From a virus, in the IMG/VR virus record IMGVR_UViG_3300042317_000397, positions 1 to 37,838 of that record: DNA of 37,838 nt; one strand, 5' to 3'. A program made the translations under genes and the position numbers. This document shows, in pieces, positions 1,640 to 29,864 of the stretch (positions within the stretch are counted from its first letter, which is position 1; each line of letters opens with the position of its first letter). The notes under the pieces were generated by a model, which worked only from the letters and a program-made list of their open reading frames with translations, was not told the origin of the DNA and searched no databases.

Positions 1640-1966
1640 CTACGGCGCGACGGGCCACGGGATCGGGCCTTCGCCTGAGTAGACGCTCGGCAGATCGCGG
1701 AGCGCCTGCCGATACGCGGCCCACGCGGCCCGATCCACCGGCGCGTCCGCTACCTGCGTCCAATCGCTCGCCGTCAGCCGCTCGTTGCGCTCGCGTCGAA
1801 CGTCCGCGAGGTCGTGCCGCTCTGGCTCGTACTCCCAGCCTGCCGGGAGTTGATCGTCGGGGACTGCCGTGCAGCCTTCGGGCGGCGTCCAGCCTGCGGG
1901 AAGGTCGGCCCGCACGAAGGTCACGACACGACCGGCAGCGTTGATGATTGCGAGAGAGTTTGCCAT
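1640..1966 (-). CDS. Tail-fibre assembly chaperone-like protein
   Basis: A 108-residue protein whose C-terminal half carries the signature of phage tail-fibre assembly chaperones (Phage_tail_APC/DUF4376-like): RRERNERLTASDWTQ, then ADAPVDRAAWAAYRQALRDLP. These proteins help fold or trimerise fibre tips, or act as small fibre-tip accessory proteins. The start ATG overlaps the fibre gene stop as TAATG, so the two are translated together, which supports a role with that fibre. An in-frame GTG three codons upstream is a weaker alternative. The family call is good; the exact role is inferred. Confidence 0.75.
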   Translation of the reverse strand: MANSLAIINAAGRVVTFVRADLPAGWTPPEGCTAVPDDQLPAGWEYEPERHDLADVRRERNERLTASDWTQVADAPVDRAAWAAYRQALRDLPSVYSGEGPIPWPVAP

Positions 1967-4212
1967 TAGTACCACACCGTTACGCGAACGTAGCCATCGC
2001 CGCCGTTGCCGCCTGCGCCGCTGTTTCGTCCGTTAACCGACGCACCACCGCCACCGCCAGCGCCACCATAAGCAGCACCGTTGCCACCGTTGCCGCCGTT
2101 CGTGGAAGCGTCACCGGCAGCGCCGCCGCCACCAGAGCCGCCCGGCTGTCCAGCAAACGCAGTAGTGAAAGCGTCGGAGGCGTTTTGACCGTTGCCGCCG
2201 GGAGCCGTGCCGCCGCTGGCGTTGGCATTGAAACCGCCGACGTTCCATCCCTGCGCCCGAGCCAGCGAGCCGCTATAGGACGCATTTCCGGTAGATATGC
2301 CGCCGCCAGCGCCGCCGCCAGCCGCCGCAAATCCGACCGCGTTGTTTACGTTCGTTCCGTTGGGGTTAGCCGTTGCGCTGCTGTTGGCACCAGCGCCACC
2401 GACGTAGAGCGCGTTCCCTCCGGTGCCGCCAGTTCCAGCCGCAGCCGTTCCGCCAGAGCCGCCAGCGCCGCGCGAGGCGTAGATCGTTTGAGAGCCAATC
2501 GTTATTTGCGTGTCCGTTGCCGCCGCTGCGTTGTTGCCGCTGGTGTCGTCGGCCGTCACCGCAGCGCCACCGACGCCACCTGCGCCGACGATCATGGAGA
2601 TGGACCGCGTTGACAACTCCGTGACCGCCCGAGTGAACAGCATCACGCCGCCACTTCCGCCACCACCGCCACCAAAACGCGCCGACCCAGCTGCACCGCG
2701 ACGGCCAGAGCCGCCGCCACCACCTGAACCGATGGCAAAGAATTCGACCATCTTCGCCGCCGCCGGAATGGTGAACGTGTACGAGCCGCTTGAGCCGCTC
2801 GCCGCCGCTGGCTTCGTCGTGCGTGTGAACTCGTAGACCTCTACGAGCGTGACGGGATCGGACCCGCCGGGATTGTGGGTTGTGGCGTGGGTGCCGAGCC
2901 TCGCCGCAGCGACGGTGCCGGTGGTGATGTCGTCCCCTGAGTGAACGTGGGCCGTCGGCGTCCTGGCGTCCGTGAATCGGGCGTCGTTGCCGAGCGGGAC
3001 GGTGGTGCTGGTCTGGCCGGTGGGAATTCTCGCGATGTCCAGCGTGCCGCTCTGGATGTCCAGTGCGCTATGCGTATGATGTTGAGTTGCGGCCCCGATG
3101 TCGGCCGGGCTCAATGCGTCAGACCCGCCCGTGGCGTGGCTCGCCTTGTGGCTCGCCGGGGCGAAGGTGCTTGGCACCCCAGACAGGCTCGCATACGAAA
3201 CGCTGCTCTGCGTGGCGAGCGAGCCGAGGCCCGACACGTCCGCAGCCGCGATCGTCACGGCACCCGTGCGGCCCGCGACAGACTGCACTGGGGCGGCAGC
3301 CGAGGCGGCGGTCGCGAAATCCGAGATCGTGGAGGCCGTCTGCGTTCCCGTGTGGTTCGCCCGTTGGACCGCTGCGGCCTGGGCGGCGTTCGCCTTGCTC
3401 GTGGCATCCGACGCGGCAGCCGAGGCTACGGCGGCGTCTGCGGCAGCCTGGGCCGTGCTGACGGGCTTTGAGGCGTCGCTGGTGTTATCGACGTTGCCAA
3501 GGCCGACCATCGCCTTCGTGACGCCCGAGACGGTGCCGGTGAACGTCGGGCTGGCGAGAGGTGCCTTCGAGGCGAGCGAGTTGGTGACGGTCGTCGAGAA
3601 GTTGGCGTCTGAGCCCAAAGCCGAGGCCAACTCCGCGAGCGTGTCGAGCGTCGCGGGGGCCGCGTTCACGACGGCAGCCACCGCAGCGGAAACGTCACTC
3701 GTGCGGGCGATGTTCGAGGAGAGCCGGGCGTCGGGGAGCGTGCCCGACACCAGTGCCGAGGCGTCGGTCGTCGCGGTAGCGTTACTGCCCGCCGGGCCGG
3801 TTGCGCCCGCCGGGCCTTGTGGTCCGGTGTCGCCTTGATCGCCTTTATCGCCCTTGGGTCCCGCGACTCCCGCAGGCCCGGCAACACCCGCTGGTCCCTG
3901 GATTCCGGCGACGCCTTGGATTCCTTGAATGCCTTGCTCGCCGCGTTCGCCTTGCGGGCCGGTAGCCCCGACTGAACCCGTGGCCCCGGCAGGAATCGTG
4001 AAGTTGAGAACCGCCGCCGATGTCGTCCCGGCGTTGACCACTGAGGCCGACGATCCCGGCGCACCCGTCGTCACGGTGCCAACCGTCACCGACGCAGCCG
4101 CGCCTGCCGTCCCCGTAGGCCCGACGCCACCAGACACGGCAACGTCGATCTTCGTCTCGCCGACGTTCGCCGTGATCTGCTGCCCGCCGGATACGTTCGC
4201 GTTGATCGCCAT
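1966..4212 (-). CDS. Collagen-like tail fibre with glycine-rich tip
   Basis: A 748-residue receptor-binding fibre. Residues 1-75 are a short beta-rich head containing a VTVGTVTTGAPGSSAS unit shared with the other fibre of this phage. Residues 79-143 are a collagen-like G-X-Y run (for example GEQGIQGIQG, GPKGDKGDQGDTGPQG), expected to form a trimeric shaft. Next come Ala/Ser-rich helical segments and fibre repeats with KAPLASPTFTGTV and LGNVDNTSD, then His-rich motifs. The last 230 residues are glycine-rich (GGGGGSG, GGNGGNGAAYGGAGGGGG), a common receptor-binding tip type. It follows a small BppU-like gene and precedes a fibre-assembly gene. ATG at 4212 overlaps the upstream stop; a TTG one codon earlier is less likely. 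Confidence 0.88.
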   Translation of the reverse strand: MAINANVSGGQQITANVGETKIDVAVSGGVGPTGTAGAAASVTVGTVTTGAPGSSASVVNAGTTSAAVLNFTIPAGATGSVGATGPQGERGEQGIQGIQGVAGIQGPAGVAGPAGVAGPKGDKGDQGDTGPQGPAGATGPAGSNATATTDASALVSGTLPDARLSSNIARTSDVSAAVAAVVNAAPATLDTLAELASALGSDANFSTTVTNSLASKAPLASPTFTGTVSGVTKAMVGLGNVDNTSDASKPVSTAQAAADAAVASAAASDATSKANAAQAAAVQRANHTGTQTASTISDFATAASAAAPVQSVAGRTGAVTIAAADVSGLGSLATQSSVSYASLSGVPSTFAPASHKASHATGGSDALSPADIGAATQHHTHSALDIQSGTLDIARIPTGQTSTTVPLGNDARFTDARTPTAHVHSGDDITTGTVAAARLGTHATTHNPGGSDPVTLVEVYEFTRTTKPAAASGSSGSYTFTIPAAAKMVEFFAIGSGGGGGSGRRGAAGSARFGGGGGGSGGVMLFTRAVTELSTRSISMIVGAGGVGGAAVTADDTSGNNAAAATDTQITIGSQTIYASRGAGGSGGTAAAGTGGTGGNALYVGGAGANSSATANPNGTNVNNAVGFAAAGGGAGGGISTGNASYSGSLARAQGWNVGGFNANASGGTAPGGNGQNASDAFTTAFAGQPGGSGGGGAAGDASTNGGNGGNGAAYGGAGGGGGASVNGRNSGAGGNGGDGYVRVTVWY

Positions 4213-4526
4213 CAAAGTACCTCGACGTAGCCAGTGAGGGCCGTGCGGGTGGCGTTGTTCTCAGTCCACTTCATCTGCCACCCATAAGTCCCGCGCGCCA
4301 GGGCGGCCGTCTGTGTGTCGGTGAGCGAGATATTGAACTGGCCCGCCGCAGCGTTGGCGGCCGTCACGGTGAACGCTTGGACCTCGGCCCCGCTCACGAC
4401 GCTCGTCATCGACGCGGTGACGGCGTAGCCGGTCATGCCGATGGAGAAGTCGATGAGCGTCGAGAAGTCATCGCCCCGCTTGAACGAGAGATTGAGCGTG
4501 CCAGGTGTTTGATCGTAGGAGGGCAT
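4212..4526 (-). CDS. Small BppU/Ig-like fibre adaptor (paralog 1)
   Basis: A 104-residue beta-rich protein of the type often annotated as the N-terminal domain of baseplate upper protein (BppU-like). It opens with a short strand and KRGDDFSTLIDFS, and near the end has the conserved core FNISLTDTQTAAL followed by GTYGWQMKW. The gene at 21092-21451 matches it in length, position and motif order (GDEF, ILSLTETQTAAL, YRWFF), so they are paralogs. Both lie directly upstream of a collagen-like fibre gene and overlap it, so I infer that the protein joins that fibre to the tail or helps it assemble. Confidence 0.7.
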   Translation of the reverse strand: MPSYDQTPGTLNLSFKRGDDFSTLIDFSIGMTGYAVTASMTSVVSGAEVQAFTVTAANAAAGQFNISLTDTQTAALARGTYGWQMKWTENNATRTALTGYVEVL

Positions 4527-10195: not shown

Positions 10196-10432
10196 TCAAG
10201 CGTCAGGCTCGGCCCGCCGCTGGGCGAAGTGCCGCTCACGGCACTCTCGCGCCCGCTCTGCGATCTCGTCGGGCGTCGGGTCCACGATCCTTTTCCTGTA
10301 CTTGCATACCCGATCCGGTATGCCGTGCTCGCGGCGAAGTTCGTGCAGCCGTTGCCGCCGGATGCCGAGGTGCGCTGCGATCACGTCAGCAGGCACCCCG
10401 GCATCCCAAAGTTCGCGAAGGGTGTCGAGCAT
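10196..10432 (-). CDS. Small HTH DNA-binding protein
   Basis: A 78-residue protein with a helix-turn-helix of the GcrA/homeodomain-like kind: LRELWDAGVPADVIAAHLGI, then RRQRLHELRREHGI, where the second block is the likely recognition helix. The C-terminal tail KRIVDPTPDEIAERAREC matches a module in the gene at 7626-7970. The start ATG overlaps the clamp gene stop as ATGA. It could regulate middle or late transcription, since no other late activator is obvious. That role is inferred only from its size, fold and place at the end of the replication genes. Confidence 0.7.
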   Translation of the reverse strand: MLDTLRELWDAGVPADVIAAHLGIRRQRLHELRREHGIPDRVCKYRKRIVDPTPDEIAERARECRERHFAQRRAEPDA

Positions 10433-11535
10433 CAGTCCTTCGCCAACGGCATGACCACGCCGGTGCAGTCGCCGCACCGGAAGACGACCGCGCTCTGAGC
10501 GTCCACCGCCTCGACCTCGACCGGCTCGGCCTCATCCACGCCACGCAGGAACTCGACCACGAAGCCGGGGTCGAGCGCCACGCTCGCCGTCTGGCCCGCT
10601 TCCAGCAGGCCGCACGTCACGCTCGACTGCCCAGCCTCGGCACTCTGCGCCGTCAGGTGGATGCCGTTCTCCACGAACGCGAACGTCACGCCCTTCGACT
10701 GCTCACTCGTCACGATGGCCGCCTGCCGCGTCGCTGCCAGGAGCTCGGCCCCGTTCACGAGCGTGGCCTTCGCATCCCGCTCGGGGATCACGTCACGCCA
10801 CCGGGGGAAGCGTCCCTCGACGAGCCGGGCCGTCACCACCGTGCCGTCGATGGTCGCCACCACCTCGCGGTCGGTGGCCTCCAGCTGCACCGCCCCCTCG
10901 CTGTGCGAGGCGATGCTGCTGATGGTCAGGATCGCCCGCGTCGGGATCAGCGTCGTGGAGTCGTCCACCGCCTGGTCCACTTCGATGCCGTAGGACGAGA
11001 GCCGCCGCCCGTCCGTGCCCACAAGCGTTACCGTGCCATCCTTCACCTCGACGAGCACCGCCCCAAGGGCGAACCGGCTGCTCTCGTTGTCCGTGGCGTA
11101 GGCCACCGCCTTCACGGCCCGCACGAACTGGTCGCACGGCACCCGGCAGATCGGCTTCACGGCCTGCGGCTCCCACTGTGGGAATTCCGCCGCGTCTTCG
11201 GTGGGCAGCGTCCACGTCCCACCTCCCACGCTCACGGTGCAGGACGTGTCGCCCGGCGTCAGCGTCACCTCGTCGCCCGAGGCGGCCCCGAGGATCGCCT
11301 GCAAGCGGGCGAACGGGAGCAGCAGCGGGGCGTCGGTGTACGGCACCTCGGCCGACACCTGAAGTTCAAGATCACTCGCCGTGATCCCGCCGTTTGCCAG
11401 CAAAACGTTCAACAGGATCGGCTTCGGGCTTCTGCTTGGAACAGCGGCCCGCACCGCAGCCAGGGCCTTTCTCAGCGAGTCGATTGGCATGGCTATGCCA
11501 GAACTCTTGCGCTTCCTTGCGATAGTCGCGGTCAT
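10432..11535 (-). CDS. dnaN: DNA polymerase III beta sliding clamp (DnaN) homolog
   Basis: A 367-residue protein matching the bacterial beta clamp in length and order of landmarks. The first domain opens PIDSLRKALAAVRAAVP. ATDNESSRFALGAVLVE and VGTDGRRLSSY are the central-domain equivalents of the clamp's conserved ATDGHRLA segment. EGRFPRWRDVIP corresponds to the EGRFPDYRRVIP signature. The end GVVMPLAKD matches the family's VVMPM terminus. The clamp encircles DNA and tethers polymerases and repair enzymes. No DNA polymerase is encoded here, so it would recruit host Pol III or compete with the host clamp. The start has AAAGGA about 9 nt upstream and overlaps a small membrane frame. Confidence 0.88.
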   Translation of the reverse strand: MTATIARKRKSSGIAMPIDSLRKALAAVRAAVPSRSPKPILLNVLLANGGITASDLELQVSAEVPYTDAPLLLPFARLQAILGAASGDEVTLTPGDTSCTVSVGGGTWTLPTEDAAEFPQWEPQAVKPICRVPCDQFVRAVKAVAYATDNESSRFALGAVLVEVKDGTVTLVGTDGRRLSSYGIEVDQAVDDSTTLIPTRAILTISSIASHSEGAVQLEATDREVVATIDGTVVTARLVEGRFPRWRDVIPERDAKATLVNGAELLAATRQAAIVTSEQSKGVTFAFVENGIHLTAQSAEAGQSSVTCGLLEAGQTASVALDPGFVVEFLRGVDEAEPVEVEAVDAQSAVVFRCGDCTGVVMPLAKD

Positions 11536-13318: not shown

Positions 13319-14140
13319 TCAGGTCAGGGCCGGTGTCCTCGGCGTGTTCTTCCGCAACTGGCTCCAATCGCAATACGCCTGCTCAAACAACGCCGGGCTG
13401 CGGTGGCCAAGGTGCAGCCTCCCCGCGCCGGGTTTCTCCATTTCGCAATGCGTGGCACCTGAGCGGCGCAGCCACTTGGAACTGCCGCCGAGCCCCTGCT
13501 TGTCGAGCAGATCCCGCATCAGCCTGTGGGCTCGCCGCCGCTTGCAGGCCCAGCCGAGGATCAACCCGTTCGGGCTTTTCGCCAGCATCGCGTCGACGGC
13601 GTCCAAGCATGCGGGCGTGAGCGGCCTGGTGAGCGGGTCGCCCGTCTTGCTCTGAGTCCACGCGAGCGTGTCGCCGTCAATGTTGTCGCGGCCGAACGAC
13701 ATGACATCGCCAAACCGGGCACCGCACTCGTAGGCCAGTAGCACCCAGCACCGCAGGAACTGGCCGAGATCGGCCCCGCTGCGGAGCCGCTTGCCGTTGT
13801 AGTCGGCCGTGGCCTTCAGGAGTTGCTGCAGCTGGGCGATCGTCCACGCCTTCGTGGGCTTTTTGCGGGCCTTCACCGTCATCACGCCACGCGGAGCCAC
13901 GTCCACAAGTTCGGCCTCGTAGGCAAACCGCCAGAGCGTCAACAAGATCGTGCGTTCGGCACGCACGGTGGTGCTCTGCAATTGCGATGAACGCACCCGC
14001 AGGTAGCGATTCACCGCATCGCTAGATATCTCGCCGCACTTGGCCGCTATCCGCTTCACGTTCGCCGCGTAATGCACCGAGACAATCCGCTCGGATAGGT
14101 AGCGTTCGGCCACCTGCTGAAAAGTCTTCTTCGCTTTCAT
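13319..14140 (-). CDS. Tyrosine recombinase, second copy (minus strand)
   Basis: A 273-residue site-specific recombinase with an N-terminal SAM-like core-binding domain (AERYLSERIVSVHYAANVKRI) and a C-terminal catalytic domain. The catalytic residues are Arg142 (ECGARFGDV), Lys165 (SKTGDP), Arg225 (KWLRRSGATH), His246 (LGHRS) and the nucleophile Tyr256 (FEQAYCDWS). The His of the usual HxxR box is replaced by Lys222, a tolerated but notable change. It lies in the early operon, unlike the plus-strand integrase. It may be a resolvase for dimers, an excision factor, or a second integrase. Confidence 0.88.
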   Translation of the reverse strand: MKAKKTFQQVAERYLSERIVSVHYAANVKRIAAKCGEISSDAVNRYLRVRSSQLQSTTVRAERTILLTLWRFAYEAELVDVAPRGVMTVKARKKPTKAWTIAQLQQLLKATADYNGKRLRSGADLGQFLRCWVLLAYECGARFGDVMSFGRDNIDGDTLAWTQSKTGDPLTRPLTPACLDAVDAMLAKSPNGLILGWACKRRRAHRLMRDLLDKQGLGGSSKWLRRSGATHCEMEKPGAGRLHLGHRSPALFEQAYCDWSQLRKNTPRTPALT

Positions 14141-14240: not shown

Positions 14241-14669
14241 TTACGCCTCGCCCGCTTGGCTGCCGCTCCCGTCTGCCGGGTTGCCCCCTGCGGCTGGGGC
14301 TGTTTCTTCTGCTTGATCCCCTTCCACGAGTCGTGCCACGCCATCGGCGTCTTCCTTCCAAGTTGCTGCGTCTTCCACTGTGTTCCTGGCCGCGAGCCAC
14401 GCGCTCATCAGCCTGTTGGTCCATCTGCCGTCCCACTCCTCGCCATCCAAGGCGTCGATCAACAGCACGAGGCGGGCGTGTATCCACTTCGCTTTCCTGG
14501 CGATCTGCGCGTCGGTGAGCATGGGCAGCGGGTCCGGGCCTCGACGGCCCGTAGGCTTCGGGGCGGCGCGTGGCCGCCGCTCGAAGACCTCGGGCTGCCG
14601 GGCCTCGAACTCGTTCCACTCGCCGGTGCTCGGCGGGTGGCCCTCGTTGATGCGGCGGTCAACGCTCAT
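14241..14669 (-). CDS. Hypothetical protein following RecT (142 aa)
   Basis: A 142-residue protein starting MSVDRRINEGHPPSTGEWNE. It has a Pro/Arg-rich region (ERRPRAAPKPTGRRGPDPL), a helical centre with LTDAQIARKAKWIHARLVLLIDALDGEEWDG where helices look amphipathic, and a disordered Gly/Ala/Glu-rich tail. No family recognised. It overlaps the RecT gene by 4 bp, so it is made with it and may assist recombination. The longer open frame to 14939 is shadow sequence. Confidence 0.6.
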   Translation of the reverse strand: MSVDRRINEGHPPSTGEWNEFEARQPEVFERRPRAAPKPTGRRGPDPLPMLTDAQIARKAKWIHARLVLLIDALDGEEWDGRWTNRLMSAWLAARNTVEDAATWKEDADGVARLVEGDQAEETAPAAGGNPADGSGSQAGEA

Positions 14670-15325
14670 CGGGCGTGCGCCTCCGCGTCGATCTCCTCCG
14701 CGTCGAAGTGCTCCACACCGTTGTCTTCGGGCTCGGCGTGCTCGAGCCGCTGCACGGCGGCTCTGGCCTGCGTCACGCGAACGGTCGGCTGCGGCCGGGC
14801 CGTTTGGTAGTCCTGTGCCTCCTCGGCCGTCACGAGGCCACGCAGGATGTCGGGGAACGCATCGCGGAGAGCGAAGCCCCTGGCCCGCAGTTGCAGCATC
14901 CGCTTCGGATATTGCGTCCACGGTCCCGACTTGCCCCACAGGCTGGCCCGCTTGGCGTCCTCCACGGAGAACTCGACACGCACCGGAGCGTGGCCCCTCC
15001 GCTTGGCGATGCAGACCGCCTTCGGGTTGGGCGTGCCCTCCCCCTCGATCGTCTCCTCAATGCCCTCGCAGACCGGCGAGGCGAGGCAGAGAGCCTTCGC
15101 GGAGTCGCCCCAAATGCTGGGGCGGCCGTTGATGTTGGCGATGCACTGCAACGCCTGCATCGGGGCAAGGCCCAGCTCGGCACCGAAGGCGATCGCCCCG
15201 GCACACTTCTCGGGCTGCCCCTGGTAATCCTTCGGCACGAGGCCGCTCGCGGCGGCGATCTTGCCCAGCGTCATCAAGTCGCCCACGGAAGAAACCCGCA
15301 GGCCGGTGGTCAGGTCAGTGCTCAT
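14666..15325 (-). CDS. recT: RecT-family ssDNA annealing protein
   Basis: A 219-residue single-strand annealing protein. The family signature is extensive: KCAGAIAFGAELGLAPMQAL, then NINGRPSIWGDSAKALC, then SGPWTQYPKRMLQLRARGFALRDAFPDILRG, then the typical TAEEAQD near the end. It pairs complementary strands in phage recombination and replication-fork repair. The start is ATG 15325, with AAAGGA about 7 nt upstream; a longer upstream frame is less likely. RusA, a PD-(D/E)XK protein and the clamp in the same early operon are natural partners. The acidic tail (EEIDAEAHAR) may bind SSB-like partners. Confidence 0.9.
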   Translation of the reverse strand: MSTDLTTGLRVSSVGDLMTLGKIAAASGLVPKDYQGQPEKCAGAIAFGAELGLAPMQALQCIANINGRPSIWGDSAKALCLASPVCEGIEETIEGEGTPNPKAVCIAKRRGHAPVRVEFSVEDAKRASLWGKSGPWTQYPKRMLQLRARGFALRDAFPDILRGLVTAEEAQDYQTARPQPTVRVTQARAAVQRLEHAEPEDNGVEHFDAEEIDAEAHAR

Positions 15326-15428: not shown

Positions 15429-15650
15429 CTAATGCGTGATGTCTGCGGTTGGCACGGTCAGCCAGCCGCCGCCGACGTTGATGCACATGAACTTGCCGTC
15501 GTCCTCGACCCACTCGACGTGGCCAGACCAGTGCTTGCCAGCGGTCTTGCCGCTGACGAAATCGCCCTGCGCTGGCAGGCTCACCTCGCGGCCCGCCGCC
15601 TCGAGCATCCCAGCCACCGCACCCGCGTATTCGCGTTCGTGAGCATCCAT
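15429..15650 (-). CDS. Small early protein (73 aa), first gene after promoter P1
   Basis: A small protein starting MDAHEREYAGAVAGMLEAAG, followed by a beta-rich part with a KOW/SH3-like feel (QGDFVSGKTAGKHWSGHVEWVEDDGKFMC, then GGGWLTVPTADITH). It might bind DNA or RNA, but no family is certain. ATG at 15650 has AGGGAG upstream and lies about 26 nt after the expected P1 start site, so it is the first gene of the leftward early operon. A longer frame through the operators to 15716 is not plausible. Confidence 0.6.
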   Translation of the reverse strand: MDAHEREYAGAVAGMLEAAGREVSLPAQGDFVSGKTAGKHWSGHVEWVEDDGKFMCINVGGGWLTVPTADITH

Positions 15651-15665: not shown

Positions 15666-15710
15666 GTTCCAAGTTCGGTAGTTCTGTACCAAAGTCGGTA
15701 GTTCGGTCAA
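15666..15710 (-). promoter_or_regulatory. Leftward promoter P1 with operators
   Basis: On the minus strand there is TTGACC (15705-15710), a 16-bp spacer, and TACAGA (15683-15688) as -35 and weak -10. The inverted repeat GTACC-N6-GGTAG (15686-15701) overlies the core promoter. A degenerate second copy, TTCC-N6-GGTAG, follows at 15667-15681. Its expected start lies about 26 nt before the 73-residue gene, and it probably drives the recT-replication operon. Confidence 0.7.
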
Positions 15711-15850
15711 CGGCAAAATAATCCGATCACCGAAACCGCCAACTCAATCGCGTCGTGAACGGCCTTCGATGCCGGGGAATACGTTCCCAGGTCCTGGCCG
15801 ATGCGGATCAGCACGAGAGCGTGCAGAGCGTTGTCCCAAGTCGGTTTCAC
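15707..15850 (-). CDS. 47-residue protein between promoters
   Basis: A short frame starting (GTG) VKPTWDNALHALVLIRIGQD and ending VSVIGLFCR, helical with two amphipathic stretches. AAAGGAG lies 5 nt before the GTG, inside the transcript expected from P2. An alternative ATG at 15865 would begin almost exactly at the P2 start site. Its stop codon lies inside the P1 -35 box. I know no family. Its place between two operator-controlled promoters suggests a switch, Cro-like or antirepressor peptide, but that is speculation. Confidence 0.55.
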   Translation of the reverse strand: MKPTWDNALHALVLIRIGQDLGTYSPASKAVHDAIELAVSVIGLFCR

Positions 15851-15872
15851 AATGACTCCTTTCATGTGGGGG

Positions 15873-15900
15873 ATACTACCAAGTTCGGTAGTTCGGTCAA
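15873..15900 (-). promoter_or_regulatory. Leftward promoter P2 with perfect operator
   Basis: On the minus strand, TTGACC (15895-15900), a 16-bp spacer, and TAGTAT (15873-15878). The perfect inverted repeat ACTACC-AAGTTC-GGTAGT (15875-15892) fills the spacer and -10. A bound dimer would block RNA polymerase. The expected start lies at about 15866. Confidence 0.75.
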
Positions 15901-15911
15901 CAGGAATTCAG

Positions 15912-15939
15912 AAAAAAATCTTTTCGGGCGTTTCCCCCG
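15912..15939 (-). terminator. Weak rho-independent terminator
   Basis: On the minus strand after the HTH gene stop, CGGG-GGAAACG-CCCG is followed by AAAAGA and seven T residues. The stem is only 4 bp, so it is weak, but the T-run and the position before P2 fit a terminator for the HTH gene. Confidence 0.45.
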
Positions 15940-15941
15940 TG

Positions 15942-16196
15942 CTATGCGCTCTTACGGCGGCGCTTCGGGGCAGGCTTCGAGGGCTTGTCCTTGGCCGCGT
16001 TGGAGCGGCTGGACAAGTTCTTGCGTAGGGCGACGGCCTCGGCCCGATCCACCATCCAAGTCCACTCGTTCACTTGGAAGCCGCCGAGCTTGCCCTCTCG
16101 CAGCAGGTGGCGAATCCAGCCGTCGGTGCAGCCAGCCAGATCGCAAGCCTCTGAAACGGAAACCCACTTGTTGTCGGGGGATGCCACGGTGCTCAT
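15942..16196 (-). CDS. Excisionase/MerR-like HTH regulator
   Basis: An 84-residue protein whose core WVSVSEACDLAGCTDGWIRHLLREGKLGGFQV is the winged-helix of the HTH_17/excisionase (AlpA/MerR-like) type. The Trp-rich wing VNEWTWMVDRAEAVAL and a basic tail (KPSKPAPKRRRKSA) follow and would bind DNA. It lies divergent to the plus-strand integrase, as Xis or repressor genes often do. Its own promoter P3 is covered by the shared operator, so autoregulation by this protein is possible. It may be the repressor, the excisionase, or both. Confidence 0.8.
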   Translation of the reverse strand: MSTVASPDNKWVSVSEACDLAGCTDGWIRHLLREGKLGGFQVNEWTWMVDRAEAVALRKNLSSRSNAAKDKPSKPAPKRRRKSA

Positions 16197-16202
16197 GCCT
16201 CC

Positions 16203-16230
16203 ATACTACCGAGTGCGGTAGGAAGTTCAA
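16203..16230 (-). promoter_or_regulatory. Leftward promoter P3 with operator
   Basis: On the minus strand, TTGAAC (16225-16230), a 16-bp spacer, and TAGTAT (16203-16208). The inverted repeat CTACC-GAGTGC-GGTAG (16206-16221) covers the spacer. The expected start falls on the A of the HTH gene ATG at 16196, so the transcript would be leaderless; GGAGG at 16198-16202 would lie upstream of it. Confidence 0.7.
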
Positions 16231-16252
16231 ACGCCCACGCAGGCGCTTGCCT

Positions 16253-16299
16253 TTGGAGGTCGGCAACCGTAGCGTTGAACTACGGGAACCGACCACCAA
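16253..16299. repeat. Imperfect 47-bp palindrome, candidate attP core
   Basis: Nested inverted arms run TTGG-A-GGTCGG-CAA-CCGTAG on the left and CTACGG-GAA-CCGACC-A-CCAA on the right around a 7-bp centre CGTTGAA. Inverted core sites around a 7-bp overlap are the geometry of lambda-type attachment cores. It lies upstream of the plus-strand integrase. On the minus strand, GTTCAACGC also matches a tRNA T-arm box (GTTCRANNC), which may reflect an attB in a tRNA gene. A full tRNA cannot be folded here. Confidence 0.45.
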
Positions 16300-16431: not shown

Positions 16432-17322
16432 ATGAGGTTGTCAGAGCTTTTTTCCCGTGAATATGCCCCTCTGCGACGCCTCGGGCAGAAGAGCATCAAC
16501 TGCTACATGGTCAGCCTGCGGCACTTCGATAGACACCTTGGCGAGTCGGCACGGTTGGACCATTTGACGGACTTGACGGTTGCCCGGTTCCTAGCCGCCC
16601 GCGAGCGGGAAACCTGCCGGGCGACGGCGGCCCGCGACCGGGTGCAGCTGCTGGCCCTGTGGCGGTACGCCGCCCGGAAGCGGATGAAGGCCAGCGATGG
16701 CACCCTGCTCGACTTCCCCGAGGTGCCGATCATGCGAGCCCCGGCGCGGGTGCCGGTGGCCTACACCAGCGAAGACGTGGCCCTGCTGATCCGCGAGGCC
16801 AGAAGGTTCACCGGCACCGTGGCCGGGATTCCCGAGGCCGATTGGTGGTCAAGTTTGTTGCTTTGCCTGTGGGAGTCGGGCGAACGGATCAACGCCGTTA
16901 TGCACACCAAGTGGCGGGAAATCGACACGTCAGGCCGCCGCATCACGTTTCGGGCGGAAACGCGGAAAAACCAGACCCGCGACCTAGACCGCCAGATTTC
17001 GCCCACGCTGGCCGCTTGGCTGTCGGGGCGTATCCAGAGCCCGAATGCCCTGGTCTGGCCGTGGGACCGCAACGCATGCCTTCTGTGGAAGCGTATGCAG
17101 GGGATAGCCGCCAGGGCACGGGTACAGTACCGTGGATTCCACGGGATACGCCGTGCCGCCGTGAGTTATGCGGAGGCAGCGTGCCCAGGAGCAGGCCAGA
17201 AACTGGCGGATCACTCGAGCCCGTCGATCACCCAGAAGAGCTATCTCGATCCACGGATTGTGCCGCAAGGTCCATCCGCACCGGATCTGCTGCCCAAACT
17301 GGATTTGACGCCGCCGACGTAA
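16432..17322 (+). CDS. int: Tyrosine recombinase (integrase), only plus-strand gene
   Basis: A 296-residue site-specific recombinase that would integrate and perhaps excise the phage. The N-terminal domain is the usual core-binding fold (YAPLRRLGQKSINCYMVSLRHF). The catalytic residues are Arg152 (ESGERINAV), Lys179, His237 and Arg240 (FHGIRRAAVSY), His261 (LADHSS) and Tyr271 (TQKSYLDP), so all are present. AGGAG lies 9 nt before the ATG. It diverges from the HTH gene across the regulatory region and points into the late genes, and is separated from the convergent gene by a nested inverted repeat. It is probably the true integrase of the phage. Confidence 0.92.
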   Translation: MRLSELFSREYAPLRRLGQKSINCYMVSLRHFDRHLGESARLDHLTDLTVARFLAARERETCRATAARDRVQLLALWRYAARKRMKASDGTLLDFPEVPIMRAPARVPVAYTSEDVALLIREARRFTGTVAGIPEADWWSSLLLCLWESGERINAVMHTKWREIDTSGRRITFRAETRKNQTRDLDRQISPTLAAWLSGRIQSPNALVWPWDRNACLLWKRMQGIAARARVQYRGFHGIRRAAVSYAEAACPGAGQKLADHSSPSITQKSYLDPRIVPQGPSAPDLLPKLDLTPPT

Positions 17323-19574: not shown

Positions 19575-21095
19575 TCAAGCGTGAGGGAACGCAGCCGTTG
19601 GCGGCGTGAAGTTCGCCGTGTAGCGGGCGACGCTTGTAAATCGCAGTTCGTCTATGTGACCTGCAAACGTATTGCTCTGCCACGGCACCTTGCCGATCGT
19701 CGCAGTGGAACCTGACAGCGATCCGCTTTGGCCGCCGCCGCCAAGAAGGTCGGTTCCGACGCTCACGCCGTTCACGAAGACACGCAGAACACCGGACTGC
19801 CTCGACACGGCAAGGTGAACCCACTGGTCGCCAGGCACCGCATTGGCAGCTCTAATGACGAAAAGGCTTCCGCCGCTATCCGCAACGTCGAGCTGGCTGC
19901 CAGACAGCCACGCATAGACCCCGCAACATTCAAATATCGGACCGCCACCAGATGAGAGAAGCCACATCTCGCAAGTGAAGTCGCCGCTGCCGATTGCAAT
20001 GCCTGAGCCGCTAACGCCAAGGCTGCCGCCGTTCACATTGAGACTCGCGCCGCCGAATTTGCTTTGCGAAGTGCTGATCGCAGCGCCACCCGAAGCGGTC
20101 GCAGTCTTTGGCGATGCCGATGAGTCTGTGAATGTCGTGCTGCCGTTGCTGCCGTTCATGTGCAGCAAGAGGAACACATTGCTGAAGAACGGGTCTGACA
20201 ACACCCACGACGAAAGCGCCGCACGCTTCCATGTGTTCGTCGCCACGCAAACGTAAATATTGCTTGCATCGTAGGCCATCGCCCCAGCGGTGCCAGTTGA
20301 GCCAGGGCCGTCAGGCACGTTCGCCCACGACATTCCGCCGGTCCCGGCGTCGCCGCGCGGGATGACGAGATTGAGCGTCTGGCTGGGGGCCGTGCCGGTC
20401 AGCGTCGCTGAGGCATTTGATCCCGCCGCCCCAGTGGTCACGGTGCCGACGCTCAATGAGTTCGCAGGCCCGGCCGGGCCGACGCTACCGGTCGCGCCAG
20501 CCGCACCTGCGGCCCCCGTGTCACCACGCGGTATCGCGAGCGAGAGCGTTTGATTGGGTGCGCTGCCCGTGATCGTGGCCGATGCCGATGATCCAGCGGC
20601 ACCAGTGGTCACCGTGCCAACCGTCAGGCTATTTGCAGGCCCAGCCGGGCCGACGCTACCCGTCGCACCCGTGCTGCCCGTGGCTCCTGTCTGGCCGGTA
20701 TCGCCGCGCGGGATGGCCAGCGAGAGCGTCTGATTGGGGGCCGTCCCGGTCAGCGTTGCGGAGGCGGTTGAGCCCGCCGCGCCGGTCGTCACGGTGCCAA
20801 TGGCAAGCGTCGTCGCTGGCCCCGTGTCGCCTTTCGGCCCACGGTCGCCGCCCATCTGCGTCACGCTCACGCTCGCTGTCGCGCCGCTCGTCAGCACATC
20901 GCCCAGCGACGACGAACCGGCTACGGCTACCTCAACACTGCCGAGCGGCGTCACGGTGACGCTTGCCGTGGAACCAGAAACGGCGACGGTCGGAGCATCG
21001 CCGCCGCTGACAACGGACGAAGCCTCACCCGCACCGCTCACGCTCACGGAAACGGCGCTGCCGCCCGTCACGCTTACGGTGATGTCGTCGCTCAT
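19575..21095 (-). CDS. Collagen-like tail fibre with LamG-like tip
   Basis: A 506-residue fibre. A beta-rich, Ser/Val-rich head (residues 1-80) is followed by three units of about 60 residues, each with IGTVTTGAAGS, ASAT, LTG, APNQTLSLAIPRGDTG and a short collagen-like G-X-Y run (GATGSVGPAGPA). The C-terminal 220 residues (FLLLHMNGSNGSTTF, ASLNVNGGSLG, FTCEMWLLSSGG, DQWVHLAVSRQSG, VFVNGVSVG, HIDELRFTSVARY) form a concanavalin/LamG-type lectin-like domain, the likely receptor or glycan binder. The small BppU-like gene lies just upstream with a 4-bp overlap. The shared VGTVTTGA unit ties it to the fibre at 1966-4212. Confidence 0.88.
   Translation of the reverse strand: MSDDITVSVTGGSAVSVSVSGAGEASSVVSGGDAPTVAVSGSTASVTVTPLGSVEVAVAGSSSLGDVLTSGATASVSVTQMGGDRGPKGDTGPATTLAIGTVTTGAAGSTASATLTGTAPNQTLSLAIPRGDTGQTGATGSTGATGSVGPAGPANSLTVGTVTTGAAGSSASATITGSAPNQTLSLAIPRGDTGAAGAAGATGSVGPAGPANSLSVGTVTTGAAGSNASATLTGTAPSQTLNLVIPRGDAGTGGMSWANVPDGPGSTGTAGAMAYDASNIYVCVATNTWKRAALSSWVLSDPFFSNVFLLLHMNGSNGSTTFTDSSASPKTATASGGAAISTSQSKFGGASLNVNGGSLGVSGSGIAIGSGDFTCEMWLLSSGGGPIFECCGVYAWLSGSQLDVADSGGSLFVIRAANAVPGDQWVHLAVSRQSGVLRVFVNGVSVGTDLLGGGGQSGSLSGSTATIGKVPWQSNTFAGHIDELRFTSVARYTANFTPPTAAFPHA
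20334..20801 (-). repeat. Three tandem fibre repeats
   Basis: Three near-identical units, each about 57-60 codons and starting at residues 99, 159 and 216 of the fibre, share GTVTTGAAGS and IPRGDTG. They are slippage- and recombination-prone, so fibre length may vary between isolates. Confidence 0.75.
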
Positions 21096-29667: not shown

Positions 29668-29864
29668 TTCTTGCGTCTCCGCTTGGGCGTGGCGTCGGCC
29701 GTCTCCACGTCGTGCTCGACGGCGGCCGTCTCAATCAATTCCTGCTGACGGTCCTCCACCGCGAACCGCCGGGCGATCAACTCTTGGGCACGCCCGCCCG
29801 GGATCTCCACCACCTGCCCGGCGCGGTAGTTTTGGAACGAACGCAGCATCCTTAGTTTCGTCAT
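29664..29864 (-). CDS. Small hypothetical protein in head module (66 aa)
   Basis: A 66-residue protein: MTKLRMLRSFQNYRAGQVVEIPGGRAQELIARRFA forms a small SH3-like strand set, and the tail (VEHDVETADATPKRRRKK) is charged and basic. The start overlaps the glycosyltransferase stop by 4 bp. Similar short genes are found between connector genes in HK97-type phages, but its role is unknown. The longer frame is shadow sequence. Confidence 0.6.
   Translation of the reverse strand: MTKLRMLRSFQNYRAGQVVEIPGGRAQELIARRFAVEDRQQELIETAAVEHDVETADATPKRRRKK

Follow-up and report, generated by a model that had tools for sequence, protein, structure and literature searches.

Palindromic operators conserved at three leftward promoters of a probable Planctomycetota temperate phage, with a small winged-HTH protein as their likeliest binder

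The IMG/VR virus record IMGVR_UViG_3300042317_000397 derives from an uncultured virus. Its entire stretch of 37,838 bases, designated the window, was analysed. It encodes a tyrosine integrase (16432-17322, plus strand) that matches phrog_1 (3.8e-20) and scores 25.4 bits with PF00589 (cut-off 27.1). A comparison with 50,697 annotated phage records brought up no relatives of this integrase. One genome-collection scan located relatives in a Phycisphaerales MAG and a Planctomycetaceae MAG, so the hosts are probably Planctomycetota and the window phage is probably a temperate phage of such a host. Divergently from the integrase gene (int), an 84 aa winged-HTH protein of the Xis/MerR type is encoded (15942-16196, minus strand), the first gene of a leftward early region. 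On the same strand follow a short ORF of 48 codons with a GTG start at 15850 (15707-15850), a gene for a 73 aa protein (15429-15650), both without family match, and a gene for a RecT-type ssDNA-annealing protein (14666-15325; PF03837, 4.9e-07; phrog_561, 3.4e-39). Homologues of the short ORF are present in several, not all, relatives. Beside int, the sequence CAAAGGCAAG (16246-16255) and an inverted repeat CCGTAGTTCAACGCTACGG (16267-16285) are located. Near int of the closer integrase relatives, the AAAGGCAA element is present again; it is a candidate attP arm or core. Elsewhere, the window contains a second tyrosine-recombinase-like gene (13319-14140; phrog_1, 6.5e-22), a phage-encoded DNA polymerase III beta clamp with all three Pfam domains (10432-11529) that has homologues in several relatives, and a C-5 cytosine DNA methylase (328-1560; PF00145, 1.9e-54). 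In addition, two large repeat-rich ORFs (1966-4215 and 19575-21095) comprise collagen-like repeats with a glycine-rich domain and a laminin-G/concanavalin-like domain.

Three leftward promoters, P3, P2 and P1, are found in this region on the minus strand. They share the design TTGA(A/C)C-N16-TA, and each carries a palindrome resembling CTACC-N6-GGTAG that starts exactly 9 nt past the first T of the -35 box. P3 (16203-16230) serves the HTH gene and consists of TTGAAC (16225-16230), a 16 bp spacer and TAGTAT (16203-16208). Its operator O3, CTACCGCACTCGGTAG (16206-16221), covers both spacer and -10 box. P2 (15873-15900), upstream of the short ORF, comprises TTGACC (15895-15900) and TAGTAT (15873-15878) at the same spacing, with O2, CTACCGAACTTGGTAG (15876-15891), laid over it. 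P1 (15683-15710), which precedes the 73 aa gene and recT, has TTGACC (15705-15710), again 16 bp, and TACAGA (15683-15688); its -35 box overlaps the stop codon of the 48-codon gene. Two operators, O1a, CTACCGACTTTGGTAC (15686-15701), and 20 bp away the degenerate fourth copy O1b, CTACCGAACTTGGAAC (15666-15681), are associated with P1. In the relatives L007 and L009, O1b reads CTACCGAACTCGGTAC or CTACCGAACTTGGTAC. All these sets lie where the original prediction, made by reading the sequence, had placed three leftward promoters of one design with a palindrome over the spacer. The sites of the motif CTACC-N6-GGTAG proposed there are real as well; its core is refined by the relatives to CTACCG-N4-CGGTAG or CTACCGA-NN-TCGGTAG. 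A generic promoter scan of the window passed P2 alone among the three. The -10 box of P1 is weak, and its counterparts in relatives are TATGCT, TACCAT and TACCCT. P1 is more convincing in relatives (TATGCT, TACCAT) than in the window.

The exact motif occurs twice in the window at 0.005 expected occurrences. With at most one mismatch, four copies are present compared to 0.255 expected, and the highest count in 200 first-order Markov (dinucleotide) resamplings of the window was two. Loose copies are common: 17 were found with at most two mismatches (7.8 expected), a number reached in 0 of 100 shuffles. These loose copies would be the argument for regarding the palindromes as chance products of a G+C-rich window. 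Such an origin is extraordinarily improbable given the excess of exact copies, and conservation in relatives excludes it. The earlier statement that there is no other copy in the window was nearly right: a further exact one is lacking, but a one-mismatch copy without promoter is located at 29814-29829. A one-mismatch site in L008 and L009 was rejected as an operator; it is promoterless and lies inside an ORF that reads by eye as a DnaB-like helicase. Across window and relatives, the operator set is confined to promoters of the P1-P3 type without broad scatter of exact copies, and for the exact operators this was ascertained in the ACCG-type records available in full.

The HTH protein and the integrase, used as queries, led to eight related viral contigs which carry the same four sites at the same places. 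In an alignment of the nine contigs, 57 of 64 operator columns are invariant (O3 14/16, O2 16/16, O1a 13/16, O1b 14/16), compared to 179/255 in the HTH gene, 75/141 in the gene behind P2 and 33/72 in the integrase-side flank. P3 is kept in all eight close relatives with a variable -35 box (TTGAAC, TTGACG or TTGACT). At P2, just three of six -35 columns are invariant (TTGACC, TTGACG, TTGCAT, TTGCAC). Since the 16-mer of O2 does not vary at all, the operator is more constrained than the -35 box. The operator-promoter set is almost certainly real and deeply conserved.

The layout extends to far more distant phages. Scanning viral contigs with the bare DNA pattern returned 44 stretches, most of which were discarded as unrelated matches without the TTGAC spacing. 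Besides the relatives already known, two of them, L042 and L044, were retrieved by DNA pattern alone and display the layout of the window: TTGACG-16-TAGTAT lies over the palindrome, and the site adjoins a gene for an HTH protein 30-35% identical to that of the window. The integrase of L044 is 32% identical. A scan with an integrase profile identified 55 loci. Two to four promoters of this kind are present in these relatives, and their palindromes again begin 9 nt from the -35 T. Many loci (L082, L083, L090, L091, L085-L087, L112, L116 and, with a GTTCCG variant, L093, L094, L099) repeat the arrangement. The HTH gene diverges from int, and in most cases one operator-promoter precedes it, a second is located just past its stop codon and a third beyond. 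Other clades, too, have a P2-like promoter directly 3' of the HTH stop codon. At their third, P1-like promoter, a tandem second site is often located 29-31 bp away compared to 20 bp in the window. Remoter clades have other palindromes at the same place, e.g. TACGC-N6-GCGTA in L117 and TGGAG-N4-CTCCA in L077. In several remote clades (L075, L077, L133), O3 is weak or unrecognisable, and a de novo search in L111, L114, L084 and L088 revealed no clear operator. As distant relatives keep the distance between palindrome and promoter, one small phage DNA-binding protein probably shuts off itself and the early genes.

The 84 aa HTH protein scores 18.7 bits with PF12728 (HTH_17) and 18.8 bits with TIGR01764, both under the cut-offs of 27 and 28.8, respectively. 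Its relatives in L094 (28.8) and L117 (30.7) reach the TIGR01764 cut-off. The AlphaFold model shows a confident winged HTH at about residues 11-60, followed by a C-terminal helix and a low-confidence tail. The best PDB fold is Pukovnik Xis (4j2n; Foldseek E 0.023, probability 1.00), which is also a top sequence-profile match. BldC, RacA and TnrA/GlnR (4r22, 7tea) are lower neighbours. In nearly all relatives whose flank is long enough, the gene adjoins int. In the window, the -10 box of P3 ends 6 nt upstream of the HTH ATG. With a scoring whose tie-break favours 6, the best -10-like hexamer ends 6-7 nt upstream of the ATG at 24 of 26 HTH loci but only in 56 of 404 control ORFs. The P3 transcript should thus start at or next to the AUG, and the HTH mRNA is predicted to be leaderless.

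Which protein binds the operators? All seven phages with ACCG operators have int and, by profile, the HTH gene, and no other window gene tested is common to them. The product of the 48-codon gene was rejected as binder because its gene is absent from two of these phages, G414 and G417. The palindromes could in principle be arm sites for integrase or excisionase in recombination instead of operators, as they are located 0.2-0.8 kb from int and next to an Xis-like gene. This is very unlikely: their register on the promoters is fixed, and operators differ between phages with similar integrases. The integrase of L077 is about 70% identical (72% to that of the window), yet the operators are unrelated, with HTH proteins sharing 19% identity. 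Likewise, the integrases of L082 and L084/L088 are 86-92% identical and their operators different. Conversely, the window and L112 have the same operator core at 33% integrase and 29% HTH identity. Since some registers were set by eye in a sample of few clades, the covariation statistics are supportive, not conclusive: operator distance tracks HTH distance with the integrase held constant (partial Mantel r=0.34, p=0.0001), but not integrase distance with the HTH held constant (r=0.01, p=0.42). On the latter ground, the integrase was rejected as binder. O3 and O2 of one phage are more alike than those of different phages (0.69 vs 0.49 shuffled; 0/20000). Furthermore, GTTCCG arms pair with the helix sequences SMRY, TMSY or SQRY, and ACCG arms with TDGW, TDGL, TTGR or TMGR. 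On grounds of phylogenetic profile and covariation, the excisionase-like HTH protein, proposed at the outset as a candidate, is now the best one, and the comparison of sequences points to the product of the P3-driven gene as the likeliest binder.

One counter-case exists. The HTH proteins of L085 and L086 are only 19-20% identical to that of L082 (integrases 97% and 87% identical, respectively), and both phages have kept ACCG operators at P2 and P1 with a degenerate O3. This retention of the operator alongside a very different HTH, together with a symmetric site that suits ordinary dimeric repressors, would be in accord with binding by another, unrecognised phage repressor or by a host repressor. 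We regard this as unlikely. For a second phage protein, a gene shared by all ACCG phages besides int and HTH would be expected among those tested, and there is none. Regarding the host, the promoter-operator pattern had three hits in 392 Planctomycetota genomes, about chance level, and four lexA-like loci of two candidate-host MAGs have no site with fewer than two mismatches. Chance-level hits and lexA-like loci without the motif make a host regulon unlikely, and SOS-type control by LexA was discarded.

We propose that one phage-encoded repressor, most likely the 84 aa HTH protein made from P3, uses the four palindromes as its operators. It would bind as a symmetric dimer across spacer and -10 box of P3, P2 and P1 and exclude RNA polymerase. 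Thereby, it would repress three units together: its own gene via O3, the short gene served by P2 and the p76-RecT early unit served by P1, where the tandem second site may permit cooperative binding. Repression would hold the early genes off in the prophage. Dimer binding, repression and prophage silencing are inferred from sequence; that the HTH protein is both binder and repressor of all three units is somewhat more probable than its converse. The original idea of one dimeric repressor for three units thus gains from the conserved, promoter-confined set, which fits one symmetric binder. What does not fit is the expectation from the protein family, as the palindrome is unlike the direct repeats of Xis, Cox and Apl.

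Two known systems resemble the proposed circuit in the symmetry of their sites. In phage lambda, CI has symmetric operators on early promoters, and the cI mRNA transcribed from PRM is leaderless. Here, too, several symmetric operators overlap early promoters, and a leaderless repressor mRNA is predicted. However, CI differs in its HTH fold and has a C-terminal dimer domain, and its operators form clusters at two divergent promoter regions. Moreover, in contrast to the CI/Cro immunity region, 16 related records and the window ORFs tested contained no HTH_3 repressor (PF01381) over cut-off. TnrA and GlnR, members of the MerR superfamily, bind as winged-HTH dimers to inverted repeats that overlie promoters. 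The HTH protein shares the winged-HTH fold and, on symmetric sites such as these, would likewise bind as a dimer. TnrA and GlnR, however, regulate host nitrogen metabolism, and their sites differ.

Excisionase-type proteins are closer in family. Pukovnik Xis has the best-matching fold and a strong profile match to the HTH family, but it binds head-to-tail repeats (PMC7498355), and no such array was seen here. P2 Cox and 186 Apl are small HTH proteins encoded by the first genes of early operons where they also regulate phage promoters (PMC7498355); the HTH gene has the same position, and a similar regulation is predicted from its sites. The HTH protein might serve, like Cox or Apl, in excision and in early-lytic shut-off, with prophage silencing left to another protein that was not recognised. 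Its HTH_17/excisionase affinity, its best fold match with Pukovnik Xis and its position, adjoining int divergently and first in the leftward region, are consistent with this alternative, which we nevertheless consider rather doubtful. In the 16 related records, no CI/Cro-type HTH_3 protein over cut-off turned up that could be the separate repressor, and no copy of the site was seen at the candidate attP element. In addition, the reported sites of Xis/Cox/Apl-type proteins are head-to-tail direct repeats, those of Cox and Apl one helix turn apart (PMC7498355), so that a palindromic site is a departure: the sites studied here are inverted repeats inside the promoter spacer, and the spacing of tandem copies at P1 is 20 or 29-31 bp. 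Pf4 has an excisionase-type protein, XisF4, in its lysis-lysogeny circuit, but repression there is the task of a second protein, Pf4r, and XisF4 is its own activator (PMC7379572). For the HTH protein, a role in such a circuit is putative and autorepression is predicted, and a second repressor was not recognised.

Hardly any regulatory circuit has been described for temperate phages of Planctomycetota, and the literature searched contained no account of one like this. The site set constitutes a short, concrete and testable one. Should the HTH protein suffice for immunity, it would be unusually small for a repressor and would tie excisionase-type proteins to palindromic operators. Tentatively, a wider rule may be suggested: in widespread uncultured temperate phages of Planctomycetota, one excisionase-type winged-HTH protein of 70-90 aa, made from a leaderless mRNA, might control early genes and lysogeny as immunity repressor and excisionase in one, acting on inverted-repeat operators in the spacers of the early promoters and of its own, with an operator specificity that diverges with the HTH and independently of the integrase. 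Within the family, phages matched in integrase and differing in HTH protein and operator form natural pairs, which allow study of how this small winged-HTH class reads DNA. Two further observations were made in the course of the scans. L042 encodes a CsrA-like global regulator (1974-2150; PF02599, 5.2e-21). L143 (G013:C119), in a Phycisphaerales MAG, contains TTGACC-CCG-CTAGCCGAACGGCTAG-TATAGG beside another integrase; its palindrome is perfect and sits in the same register on the promoter, with arms of another sequence.
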